A DNA stretch of 64,000 nucleotides from Bradyrhizobium sp. CCBAU 53340. Lineage in GTDB: Bacteria; Pseudomonadota; Alphaproteobacteria; Rhizobiales; Xanthobacteraceae. The stretch lies in NCBI RefSeq assembly GCF_015291645.1, contig NZ_CP030055.1:3534001-3598000 (forward strand), written 5' to 3'. Of this stretch, positions 35,857 to 39,306 are shown in pieces (the first letter of the stretch is position 1; each line of letters begins with the position of its first letter). The notes beneath the pieces were generated by a model, which was given only the letters and a program-made list of their open reading frames with translations, did no database searches and was not told where the DNA came from. A program made the position numbers and the translations under genes.

Positions 35857-37251
35857 ATGATGCAATCAAGAACATCCACGCGCCAAAGGCTCGTGACACT
35901 GGTGGTCGCGCTGTTGGGAATTGCGCTTCTCTACCTCGCCCTCGGCGAGGTCGCGCTCGCCGAGGATGCGGCCCCGCCCGCCTGCGGCGGCAAGATCCTC
36001 GAGAAGTGCACGCCCAATTCCGGCGACACCGCCTGGATGCTCACCTCCGTTGCGCTGGTGCTGATGATGACGGTTCCGGGGCTCGGGCTGTTCTATGGCG
36101 GCATGGTGCGCAAGAAGAACGTCGGCGACACCGTGATGACGAGCTTTGCGGTGACCTGCCTCGTCACCATCCTGTTCGCGCTCCTGACCTACAGCCTGGC
36201 CTTCCGCGCCGGCACGCCGTTTATCGGTGGGCTGGATCGCATGTTCCTGAAGGACATCCTCAGCGACATCGGCAAGGGCGGTATCGGCAATCCCAATCCG
36301 CTCGCGGCGACCATCCCCGAGAGCGTCTATGTCTGCTTCCAGATGACCTTTGCGATCATCACGCCGGCGTTGATCGCAGGTGCGTTCGCCGAGCGGATGA
36401 AATTCTCCGCGATGCTCTGGTTCATTGGCCTCTGGGCGATCTTCGTCTATGCGCCGATCGCCCATTGGGTGTGGGGCCCTGACGGCATCTTCTCCTCCGG
36501 CAATGACGCCGCCTGGGTCAAGGTGCTCGATTTCGCCGGCGGGACCGTGGTGCATATCAATGCCGGCGTGGCAGGCCTGATGTGCGCCATCATGCTCGGC
36601 AAGCGCAAGGAGACGGGACCCGCCCACAACATGGTGCTGACCTTCATCGGCGCCTCGCTGCTCTGGGTCGGCTGGTTCGGCTTCAACGCGGGCTCCGCGG
36701 TGACGGCAGGCATGCAGGCCGGCATGGCGATGTTGGTGACGCAGATCGCAACGGCGGTCGCCGGCTTCACGTGGATGCTGGTGGAGTGGTCGCTCAAGGG
36801 CAAGCCGACGGTTGTCGGCATTTGCTCGGGCGCGGTCGCAGGCCTCGTCGCCATCACGCCGGCGTCGGGCTTCGTGAGCCCGGTGGGCGCCTTCGTGATC
36901 GGCATCGCGGCCGGTGTCCTCTGCTACTGGGGATGCACCGGGCTCAAGGCCATCTTCAGCTATGACGATGCGCTCGATTGCTTCGGCGTCCACGCCCTCG
37001 GCGGCATCGTCGGCGCACTGCTCACCGGCGTCTTCGCCGTCGAGCAATATGGCGGCACCGCGGGCGCGCTGGAGGGAAATCCCGGCCAGTTCATCAACCA
37101 GTGTATCGGCGTTGCGACGGTCTTTGTCTACGACGCCGTCGTCAGCCTGATCATCCTCTATGTGGTCAAGCTGTTCGTCGGGTTGCGGGTATCGGAGGAT
37201 ATGGAGCGCGACGGTCTCGACCTCGCACTGCATGGCGAGGTCGTGCACTAG
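35857..37251 (+). CDS. amtB: ammonium transporter AmtB
   Basis: 464 aa. Signal peptide or extra N-terminal helix (about 14-36), a Cys-containing periplasmic loop (PPACGGKILEKC), then eleven helices. Family landmarks: GLGLFYGGMVRKKN, the pore histidines in the VHINAGVAGL block and in DCFGVHALGG. Transports ammonium/ammonia. Usually paired with glnK, but no PII gene is adjacent here. A sigma-54-like site upstream suggests NtrC control. GGGAGG lies three bases before ATG 35857 or six before ATG 35860. Confidence 0.93.
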   Translation: MMQSRTSTRQRLVTLVVALLGIALLYLALGEVALAEDAAPPACGGKILEKCTPNSGDTAWMLTSVALVLMMTVPGLGLFYGGMVRKKNVGDTVMTSFAVTCLVTILFALLTYSLAFRAGTPFIGGLDRMFLKDILSDIGKGGIGNPNPLAATIPESVYVCFQMTFAIITPALIAGAFAERMKFSAMLWFIGLWAIFVYAPIAHWVWGPDGIFSSGNDAAWVKVLDFAGGTVVHINAGVAGLMCAIMLGKRKETGPAHNMVLTFIGASLLWVGWFGFNAGSAVTAGMQAGMAMLVTQIATAVAGFTWMLVEWSLKGKPTVVGICSGAVAGLVAITPASGFVSPVGAFVIGIAAGVLCYWGCTGLKAIFSYDDALDCFGVHALGGIVGALLTGVFAVEQYGGTAGALEGNPGQFINQCIGVATVFVYDAVVSLIILYVVKLFVGLRVSEDMERDGLDLALHGEVVH

Positions 37252-37323: not shown

Positions 37324-37665
37324 ATGATGACCGAAATTTTTGCGCAAGGTGACCTGCTGATCGAGCGGGTGTCCGATGTGGCGCCATCGGGAACGCTCGT
37401 CCAAACCGGTGTGCCGCTGGTCCTGCTGGAGGGCGAGGCCACCGGACATTGTCATGCGATCCGCGAGGGCGCGACGCTGTTCCGCGACGACGATCTGGCA
37501 CGCGACATTCCGGCCGGGCTCTATCTTGGGCATCTCCAGATCGCCGCAGCTTATGCGCGGGTGACGCACGAGGAACATGCGCCGCTGACGCTGCCGCGCG
37601 GGACCTATCGCGTGCGTCGTCAGCGCGAGCTGGGGCCGCGGGATGCGCGCGTCCTCGCCGACTGA
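37324..37665 (+). CDS. small His-rich partner of the DUF6745 protein, unknown function
   Basis: 113 aa, cytoplasmic. Conserved-looking blocks: QGDLLIERV start, EGEATGHCHAI (about residues 38-48), HEEHAPLTLPRGTYRVRRQRE (about 82-102). The paired HxH and HEEH motifs look like a metal site in a small beta fold. ATG 37324 or 37327, with GGGAGAAGG upstream. Overlaps the DUF6745 gene by 23 bases, so they are coupled. I recall the same pair in other phyla, but function is undescribed. Confidence 0.7.
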   Translation: MMTEIFAQGDLLIERVSDVAPSGTLVQTGVPLVLLEGEATGHCHAIREGATLFRDDDLARDIPAGLYLGHLQIAAAYARVTHEEHAPLTLPRGTYRVRRQRELGPRDARVLAD

Positions 37666-38761
37666 GCAGGCGCTGTCTGCGGGGCAGACGGCGGCGTTGG
37701 GCGATTACCGTGCGCGGTGGAGAGCCATCGGACGCGCGACGGCGCCTGCCGATCGCGATGCCGCGGAGGAGGGCGCGCGGCTTGCCTATCAGGCCGCAGA
37801 ACTAGAGCCGCCGGCCCGTATCGTCTGGTGCGACGGGCCGCTGGCACTGGCCGGCCGGAGGTCGCGCGACGACGGCCGCAATGTCCGCGTTCGTCTCGTC
37901 GATCGTCTTCGCCGGCGTATTGCGTCGCTGGTCAAGGCGCGCTTACACCGGAAGCTGCTGGCCGCGGTCGACAGAGCGGTCGATCCCACTGATCCGCTGA
38001 TCAGGGCGTCGACCGAGACGGTGATACGGAACGTGCCGGAGCATAATCTGTCGGTGCTGGGGCAGCTGCGCCGGACCGGCTTGTCGTTGTCAGGCGTGCT
38101 AGAGGCGTTCACCGCCCCACGGCGCTTTGCGAGCTGCGTGGCGGGGCCCCACGATCTGTCGTGGCTTGGCGCTTACGATTATCTCCGCGAGGTCTTTGGT
38201 TTGCATGCGGAGACGGAGCCCTTGCGCGGCCTGATGCGGCTCGCGACGAGCGTGGGCTGGCTGCTGCCGCACGAGCACAGCTGCTGGCTCACGGAGCGAC
38301 CGAACCTGTTGAGCGGCGATGCGCGCGACCGGCTACATCACGCCAGCGGGCCGGCGCTGCGTTATCCCGACGGCTGGTCGATTTGGGCCTGGCGCGGGGT
38401 GGAGGTGCCCCGCTGGATTATCGAGCAGCAGGACCGGATCACGCTCGCCGCGATCGACGAGCAGATCGACGTCCAGGTCCGCCGCTGCATGATCGAGATC
38501 ATGACGCCGGAACGTTACGTCGCCCTTGGCGGCGCGACCCGGGTGGCCGAGGACGAGACCGGAATCCTGTGGCGCCGCAACTGGCTCGCTGCGGACGCCT
38601 GGGCCGCCGTGGAGGTCGTCAACGCCACACCCGAGCCGGACGGCACGCGCAGGCATTTCTTCCTCCAGGTGCCGGCCAATCTGCGCACGGCGCGCGAAGC
38701 GGTCGCGTGGACCTACGGCATGAGGGCGGAGGCCTACGCACACCTCGTGCTGAGGACGTAA
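37643..38761 (+). CDS. DUF6745 domain protein
   Basis: 372 aa cytoplasmic protein, no signal or membrane segment. The C-terminal half carries the domain: LHHASGPALRYPDGWSIWAW, then GVEVPRWI, then a stretch MTPERYVALGGATRVAEDETG, WRRNW, and the end REAVAWTYGM. Conserved Asp, Arg and Trp residues dominate. Upstream region (1-200) is helical. Function unknown; coupled to the small His-rich gene before it. Confidence 0.75.
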   Translation: MRASSPTEQALSAGQTAALGDYRARWRAIGRATAPADRDAAEEGARLAYQAAELEPPARIVWCDGPLALAGRRSRDDGRNVRVRLVDRLRRRIASLVKARLHRKLLAAVDRAVDPTDPLIRASTETVIRNVPEHNLSVLGQLRRTGLSLSGVLEAFTAPRRFASCVAGPHDLSWLGAYDYLREVFGLHAETEPLRGLMRLATSVGWLLPHEHSCWLTERPNLLSGDARDRLHHASGPALRYPDGWSIWAWRGVEVPRWIIEQQDRITLAAIDEQIDVQVRRCMIEIMTPERYVALGGATRVAEDETGILWRRNWLAADAWAAVEVVNATPEPDGTRRHFFLQVPANLRTAREAVAWTYGMRAEAYAHLVLRT

Positions 38762-38775
38762 CGCATGCCTGGTCG

Positions 38776-39306
38776 CTAGCTGCGGTAGTAGCGCCACATT
38801 CGCAGGAAGGTACGATGGATCATGTCCGGCGGCTGATCGAACGGCTCGACATTGATCCGTACCATGTTGGTGTGGCTCATCCGCCAGGGCAGGCGCATCA
38901 GCCAGCGCCAGGATGGCTGCTTGCGCCAGTCGGCCACGAGCGCGCTGGTGAGCGGTGCGTTCAGCACGATCTGGAGTTCATGCACCGTCATGGCGCGCTC
39001 GGCGATCTCGACGAGGTCGATGCGCTCGATGGCGCGCCACCGGATCAGGCCGAAGGCCTGGATGAAGATGCCGTATTGGTTCGCGCCGATCGTGGGCCGG
39101 CCGGTCTCGAGCAGCGGAATGTTGTAGTAGGTGAACCCGGCCGCGAGTGCCGCGAGCGCAAGCCAGTAGAGCGCGCCGGTGAGAAGCGCAGCCGTGCAGA
39201 AGATCGCGGCCAGCGCCGCCGTGACGTAGACCGGGAAATAAGTATCGTCGCGGCCATAAGCGACCGAATAGCCACCGACATGTCCCTCGTCCAAGGCTGC
39301 GATCAT
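38776..39306 (-). CDS. membrane protein with C-terminal PH-like domain, unknown
   Basis: 176 aa beginning MIAALDEGHVGGYSVAYGRD (or MVVASTS from 39327). Two adjacent helices (VYVTAALAAIFCTAALLTG, LYWLALAALAAGFTYY), then a cytoplasmic beta-rich part (YGIFIQAFGLIRWRAIERIDLVEI) like small PH-type domains. No ribosome site is obvious at either start. It ends 15 bases after the DUF6745 gene's end, convergent. Function unknown. Confidence 0.65.
   Translation of the reverse strand: MIAALDEGHVGGYSVAYGRDDTYFPVYVTAALAAIFCTAALLTGALYWLALAALAAGFTYYNIPLLETGRPTIGANQYGIFIQAFGLIRWRAIERIDLVEIAERAMTVHELQIVLNAPLTSALVADWRKQPSWRWLMRLPWRMSHTNMVRINVEPFDQPPDMIHRTFLRMWRYYRS

Follow-up and report, generated by a model that had tools for sequence, protein, structure and literature searches.

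A small His-rich protein gene coupled to DUF6745 in Bradyrhizobium, plasmids and phages, and the exchangeable middle of the DUF6745 protein

Two overlapping genes near an ammonium-transporter gene of Bradyrhizobium sp. CCBAU 53340 raise the question of whether they belong together and, if so, what a product of such a pair might do. The genes lie in the window, the stretch of 64,000 nucleotides analysed here (G000:C1:3534001-3598000), which is part of a genome of 8.7 Mb. A sequence-only reading of this DNA had described a 113-residue protein with GHxHA and HEEHA motifs whose gene overlaps that of a 372-residue DUF6745 protein by 23 nt, and both the coordinates of the open reading frames and the PF20530 match bear this description out (Table 1). 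The larger protein belongs to PF20530 (E 1.8e-51, 174.8 bits, curated cut-off 27), it is the only PF20530 place in the genome, and its start at 37643 is supported by an N-terminal consensus common to 120 close homologues among the matches listed. It also matches phrog_31813 (E 1e-5), while residues 4-112 of the small protein match positions 10-124 of the 124 positions of phrog_27831 (E 1.2e-10). The window pair therefore matches all three of these library entries, but each of them is listed without a function, and all are silent on the pairing and on the middle region of the larger protein. No Pfam, PADLOC or NCBIfam family scored over its cut-off for the small protein, and the PADLOC profiles returned no family for either member of the pair. 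The closest named homologues are from Bradyrhizobium.

Table 1. Features of the two-gene locus and its immediate neighbours (positions in the window)
Feature	Position	Strand	Remarks
Ammonium transporter gene (amtB)	35857..37251	+	Upstream neighbour; left side of insertion site
Small partner gene	37324..37665	+	113 aa (112 from second Met); ATG 37324, second ATG 37327, stop TGA 37663-37665
GHCHA motif, His pair 1	37444..37458	+	In small partner gene
HEEHA motif, His pair 2	37567..37581	+	In small partner gene
C-terminal Asp codon of small gene	37660..37662	+	Last residue Asp in all full-length homologues counted
DUF6745 gene	37643..38761	+	372 aa; ATG 37643, stop ending 38761
Overlap of the two genes, 23 nt	37643..37665	+	
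Conserved N-terminal part of DUF6745, about residues 1-70	37643..37852	+	From family alignments; matching part of L031 modelled at 89-98
Variable middle of DUF6745, about residues 71-170	37853..38152	+	High positional entropy; without tandem repeat in the window copy
PF20530 DUF6745 domain, residues 165-366	38135..38740	+	Profile match
Convergent 176-aa gene	38776..39306	-	Downstream neighbour; right side of insertion site

The window pair occupies a stable chromosomal site beside the ammonium-transporter gene, at which no defence island or prophage was identified. In 15 of the 19 pair loci of the genus that were tested the pair lies between the transporter gene and the convergent 176-aa gene; among the remaining four, only the transporter falls within the available stretch in L003, L183 and L186, and neither flanking gene is found in L193 (L091 and L195 were outside this test). 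The 176-aa gene has a match in 8 of the 41 genomes searched. In three genomes of the genus that lack DUF6745 (G004, G010 and G024) the site is empty, with the transporter gene and the 176-aa gene about 0.2-0.4 kb apart and neither gene of the pair between them; this comparison consists of these three genomes, the distant matches to the 176-aa gene in G036 and G044 lying outside it. Since the empty sites contain neither gene, the two genes are present or absent together. Two of the pairs found in the genus look decayed: in L192 the small gene continues into the DUF6745 frame through a frameshift and the DUF6745 gene is interrupted by an internal stop, and in L194 the DUF6745 gene is split over two frames. 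The genome G017 contains, about 7 kb from an intact pair, a truncated second DUF6745 gene without a partner and beside a fragment of the 176-aa gene (L005, G017:C1:1934923-1938453), and a full 176-aa gene is found elsewhere in the same genome (L283). The L005 locus is a partial duplication and rearrangement of the pair locus.

The association extends well beyond this site. DUF6745 occurs in 21 of 265 genomes of the genus, that of the window included, and all 21 have the small gene adjacent to it. Among 246 genomes of Actinomycetota it was found at eight places in seven genomes, seven with the partner and the eighth at a contig end, and of 398 genomes sampled from the phylum to which the window belongs three contain PF20530, one of them the window genome. 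Starting from the small gene gave the same picture, with an adjoining DUF6745 reading frame in 10/10 plasmid loci and in 78/80 actinobacterial loci, the other two of which end within about 600 nt; these 80 are the best of at least 563 confirmed small-gene places on the scanned genome contigs and, being those closest to a single Nonomuraea sequence, are not independent of one another. DUF6745 genes without a partner were seen as L004/L007 in G043, as the partial copy L005, as plasmid copies L018 and L019, and as L092 (three further plasmid records with DUF6745, H6, H7 and H9, lie outside this comparison).

The pair is also carried by viruses, a distribution that the sequence-only reading had missed. 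Comparison of the final 250 nt of the small gene reduced 145 viral loci to 125 unique ones, and in 97 of these a DUF6745 gene stood beside the small gene, always on the same strand (56 of 70 in the first viral scan alone). Of the 28 misses, 25 have an end of the available DNA within 1 kb on one side; the other three are L020, L071 and L281, and the last of these has only a broken small reading frame, as one of three viral loci (L242, L279 and L281) in which this frame is short or broken. By the position of the domain, which we preferred as the basis for counting, the small gene comes first in 68 of the 97 pairs and DUF6745 in 29; counting by the start of the reading frame instead gives 66 and 31. 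The two genes are close in 94 of the 97, meaning either that the gap in the DUF6745-first order has no room for a gene of more than about 300 nt or that the DUF6745 domain begins no more than 1.6 kb from the stop of the small gene; gaps above 300 nt in the DUF6745-first order occur in L056, L076 and L080. In three annotated phages the surroundings of the pair contain polymerase, exonuclease, SSB, ERF or replication-initiator genes, and in a prophage of M. abscessus it corresponds to genes 37 and 38. The expectation that the two genes form a coupled unit recurring across phyla has therefore held: the small gene adjoins most of the DUF6745 genes tested in the genus, in Actinomycetota, on plasmids and in viruses, and at one chromosomal site presence and absence are joint.

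A database search with the small protein yielded 641 homologues at E<=1e-3 among 666 candidates, of which 120 are listed, and this marks its gene as more than a chance reading frame. The conservation of its histidines, whose clusters had looked metal-binding to the sequence-only reading, was confirmed in an alignment of 65 homologues, in which (numbering from the second Met) H41 is present in 62 with N in the other three, H43 in 65, H81 in 64 and H84 in 65. In the Skermanella copy (L014) the first His of GHxH is missing as well. Binding of a metal by these four residues is consistent with their near invariance, which makes them candidate ligands. Viral small proteins are only 27-40% identical to the window protein, yet they keep the QGD motif, GHxH, the second His pair, the GxYxVxRQRE motif and the terminal Asp. 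This Asp, which the sequence-only reading had not noticed, is the last residue in all 160 loci compared (70 viral, 80 actinobacterial and 10 plasmid) and in all 120 listed homologues. In the enlarged viral set, of which those 70 are a part, it ends the protein in 122 of the 125 loci, and the reading frame of each of the other three is short or frame-shifted. The last residue of the DUF6745 protein is Thr in 127 of 144 loci, and in 120/120 close homologues among the matches listed. For the small protein the structure model shows a largely beta fold (pLDDT 82.4, pTM 0.76), with the last eight residues below 50, and no match in the PDB was found, by fold or by sequence. A tail that is conserved but unstructured in the model suggests that it may dock on the partner. 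In L091, L193 and L006 the small partner is longer because of an insert that separates the two His pairs, and it is paired there with a distinct type of DUF6745; two such types are present in the genus of the window.

The DUF6745 protein itself has an architecture that, to judge from the library entries, is new here, namely an exchangeable middle between conserved ends. Among the 120 close homologues of the window clade (among the matches listed) the mean positional entropy is about 1.6 bits for residues 91-170 and about 0.6 bits for residues 201-360, these means being averages over blocks in a protein whose extreme ends are also variable. The model of a viral member used as proxy (L031) has the conserved N-terminal part and the PF20530 domain at about 90 or more, the last residues excepted. 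What lies between differs from one member to the next. In Methylobacterium and Deinococcus members, L015 included, the middle consists of LRR-like repeats, which were also recognized by eye in viral L041. Other members have a tandem array in this place: an array of some kind was found in 40 of the 76 DUF6745 genes of a first mixed set, and an in-frame array (minimum length 90 nt, period a multiple of three) in 68 of the 97 of the enlarged viral set. In the window copy no tandem array was found. Array-bearing copies in its genus are L091 and L193, and an actinobacterial genome with such a copy is L203, most actinobacterial copies having no array or a short one. The sequence-only reading had passed over this middle region as well. 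In another genome of the genus a 9-bp unit is repeated in tandem about 43 times (L195:351-735) just beyond a divergent DUF6745/small-gene pair. Many of the viral stretches in which DUF6745 was missed (for example L028, L033, L043, L235 and L266) end 300-800 nt past the small gene, approximately where an array would start, so that assemblies may break at the repeats and pairs of the array type may be under-counted.

The composition of the arrays was analysed in those of period 12 and at least 96 nt as reported by TRF, giving 57 arrays and 1675 units, each scored for differences from the consensus of its own array. There were 1684 nonsynonymous and 58 synonymous differences, where random changes would naively be expected to give about 433 synonymous ones; 44 of the 57 arrays have no synonymous difference at all, and in 23 the variation is confined to two of the 12 nucleotides. 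A first set of 37 arrays, which took in the LRR-type gene L041 and an array of the 9-nt type (L025), had given 1155 and 23. These counts do not amount to a formal test of selection, because homogenisation by duplication of units also lowers synonymous variation; however, that the same two positions stay diverse across many different arrays calls for selection or for targeted change. The framework residues are V, L or T together with Q, S or A, and the variable codons specify mostly W/R/G/E and A/D/G. In most arrays the unit types follow one another almost at random, but neighbouring units are correlated in 10 of 38, with a lag-1 z above 2 and values of up to 8. Close relatives can differ in their arrays: the copy of Nocardia farcinica (L017) and that of an IMG/VR contig (L048) are 99.7% identical in the final 600 nt of the gene and have 38 and 15 units, and L213 and L214 have different arrays with a 3' part that is 94% identical. 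As a counterexample, L064 and L067 have identical 3' parts and the same array stretch where both cover it.

The only experimentally studied tetrapeptide-array protein found in our literature search is gp54 of mycobacteriophage Tweety (Che8 gp57, PMC gp51), which has 48 units of 12 bp whose first two codons are invariant and last two variable, a pattern that its authors read as selection for variation (PMC2884959). We recomputed this pattern and found it to be of the same kind as in the DUF6745 arrays. The likeness covers the 12-bp units, the two invariant and two variable codons, the differences in unit number and content among close relatives, and the conserved ends around the array. Reviews report that Tweety gp54 mutants in which the number of units has risen or fallen escape the defences of the Phrann or MichelleMyBell prophages (PMC9262239, PMC8549241). 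In contrast to gp54, the window copy of DUF6745 has no array, and the 12-nt arrays are found in 57 viral DUF6745 genes. Sequence comparison with HMMs of three parts of DUF6745 and of the small protein gave no significant score for gp54, and none of its neighbours gp50, gp53, gp55 and gp56 resembles the small partner. Because gp54 shares no detectable domain with the pair, the functional analogy is one of array alone, and the likeness is one of kind and not of family. Variable region 2 of bbp36 in Bordetella phages BPP-1/BMP-1 (L206:32776-33705) is likewise an in-frame tandem array of variable number in a phage gene, but bbp36 is a DUF7666 protein with units of octapeptide type and no DUF6745 match, and bbp35, bbp37 and bbp38 show no resemblance to the small partner; array-bearing phage genes thus exist in several families.

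We propose, with a probability of about 0.4, that the pair forms a single recognition or adaptor complex with an exchangeable DUF6745 middle and that it plays a role in conflict when carried by phages. Each gene would encode one half of the complex. The middle of DUF6745 would be the surface that reads the target, and the small protein would be a constant partner, possibly stabilised by a metal, with its C-terminal tail docked on the DUF6745 domain, which is conserved. When carried by phages, the complex may act in phage-host or phage-phage conflict and could be tuned by the content and length of the array, as has been reported for Tweety gp54, while cellular lineages would mostly have kept forms that are array-less or LRR-like, often beside the STM4011-STM4015 genes considered below. 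The parts of this proposal are not equally secure: gene linkage, the conserved residues and the composition of the arrays were observed, whereas the complex, metal binding and the function are inferred. That the two genes are a coupled unit with an exchangeable binding region is, in our judgement, likely; the role in conflict, for which we argue by analogy, has the best support among the guesses for phages, but it is tentative and may well be wrong. A more specific version would make the arrays a combinatorial recognition code, in which each helical unit of four residues presents, on an invariant framework, two variable residues (mostly W/R/G/E, then A/D/G), some 10-76 units make up a reader, and the content is rewritten rapidly by recombination and point change; the small His protein would be the constant partner of every reader and the window copy a fixed, array-less chromosomal descendant. 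This version is speculative and we would not expect it to be right in full. Should the arrays indeed be readers with a unit code, phages and bacteria would possess a new class of binding protein that diversifies. An orphan domain is tied to Tweety gp54 by the pairing, by the invariant Asp at the C-terminus and by the diversifying middle, and a widespread pair without an assigned function, with its small gene at the 563 or more places counted above, becomes testable.

The arrays could be explained without any recognition if a helical tetrapeptide stretch served as a spacer or ruler, setting how far apart the two conserved ends of DUF6745 stand within a complex for phage replication or recombination, so that its sequence would be of little importance. 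The L031 array is modelled as long helices, at a low model confidence of 50-70, the pair is found among replication and recombination genes in the three annotated phages, and a review proposes that the juxtaposition of the ends of Tweety gp54 is what matters (PMC9262239). However, a pure ruler predicts neither differences that almost exclusively change amino acids, often at two fixed positions, nor the replacement of the array by LRR-like repeats, and we regard this explanation as quite unlikely. A code read from the nucleic acid, as a noncontiguous RNA or DNA code to which the protein meaning is secondary, is suggested by VIPR, whose small units are carried mostly by viruses, have tandem repeats that combine invariant with hypervariable positions, and use a GGY/NN tandem code (PMC13142463). 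The framework of the DUF6745 arrays is invariant down to the third codon positions, and in many arrays the two variable nucleotides flank GGG. VIPR differs in combining noncoding vrRNA repeats of 5 nt with a RAMP protein; the noncoding YNNGG pentanucleotide repeats by which it is recognized are absent from the DUF6745 arrays, which are coding and mostly of 12 nt. A single reading frame and a similar pattern of residues (Q/S/A, V/L/T, mostly W/R/G/E, mostly A/D/G) are maintained across different codon frameworks, and in other members the middle is occupied by LRR-like repeats of protein, all of which leaves a nucleic-acid code highly improbable. A small gene that overlaps a larger one, a patchy distribution and carriage by phages and plasmids are features that would also be expected if the small protein kept DUF6745 in check, as in a toxin-antitoxin-like or defence pair, but PADLOC, Pfam and NCBIfam yielded no match to a toxin or antitoxin family, the order of the genes is reversed in 29 of 97 viral pairs and no catalytic signature was recognised, so that we give this explanation little credence, if somewhat more than the nucleic-acid code.

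The proposal of a recognition or adaptor complex must also be weighed against the genomic neighbours of the pair, another feature not seen in the earlier reading. The STM4011-STM4015 cluster (NCBIfam NF038074-NF038076 and NF006067) encodes two radical-SAM proteins, a sulfatase-like hydrolase, a weakly ATP-grasp-like protein and an LRR protein; its gene and family names have few mentions in the literature in a search by name. These are separate genes of other families, but they adjoin the pair in many cellular loci, with at least three of them in the flanks of 76 of the 80 actinobacterial loci and with cluster genes beside 7 of the 10 plasmid loci; they neighbour the pair on 3 of 4 Deinococcus plasmids and in Methylobacterium. 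The cluster proteins of L015 were scanned and match their families, the ATP-grasp match being below the Pfam cut-off. The pair might accordingly be an accessory of a modification pathway, serving the cluster as, for example, a carrier and a substrate of which the invariant C-terminal Asp is modified, and the position of this Asp as the exact last residue would suit such a role. Against this, none of the 70 viral loci has cluster genes in flanks of up to 6 kb, the window genome has STM4013 and STM4012, the two of the five families that were searched, only below the cut-off, and the 80 actinobacterial loci are not independent. We consider a modification accessory unlikely, though less so than a ruler. 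In the loci examined the STM4011-STM4015 cluster also gains two constant companions. On plasmid pDFI2 of Deinococcus ficus (L010:7375-11486) other genes take the place of the STM4011-STM4015 genes after the pair, encoding a VWA-domain protein, a DUF350 protein and a protein of the glutathionylspermidine synthase family.
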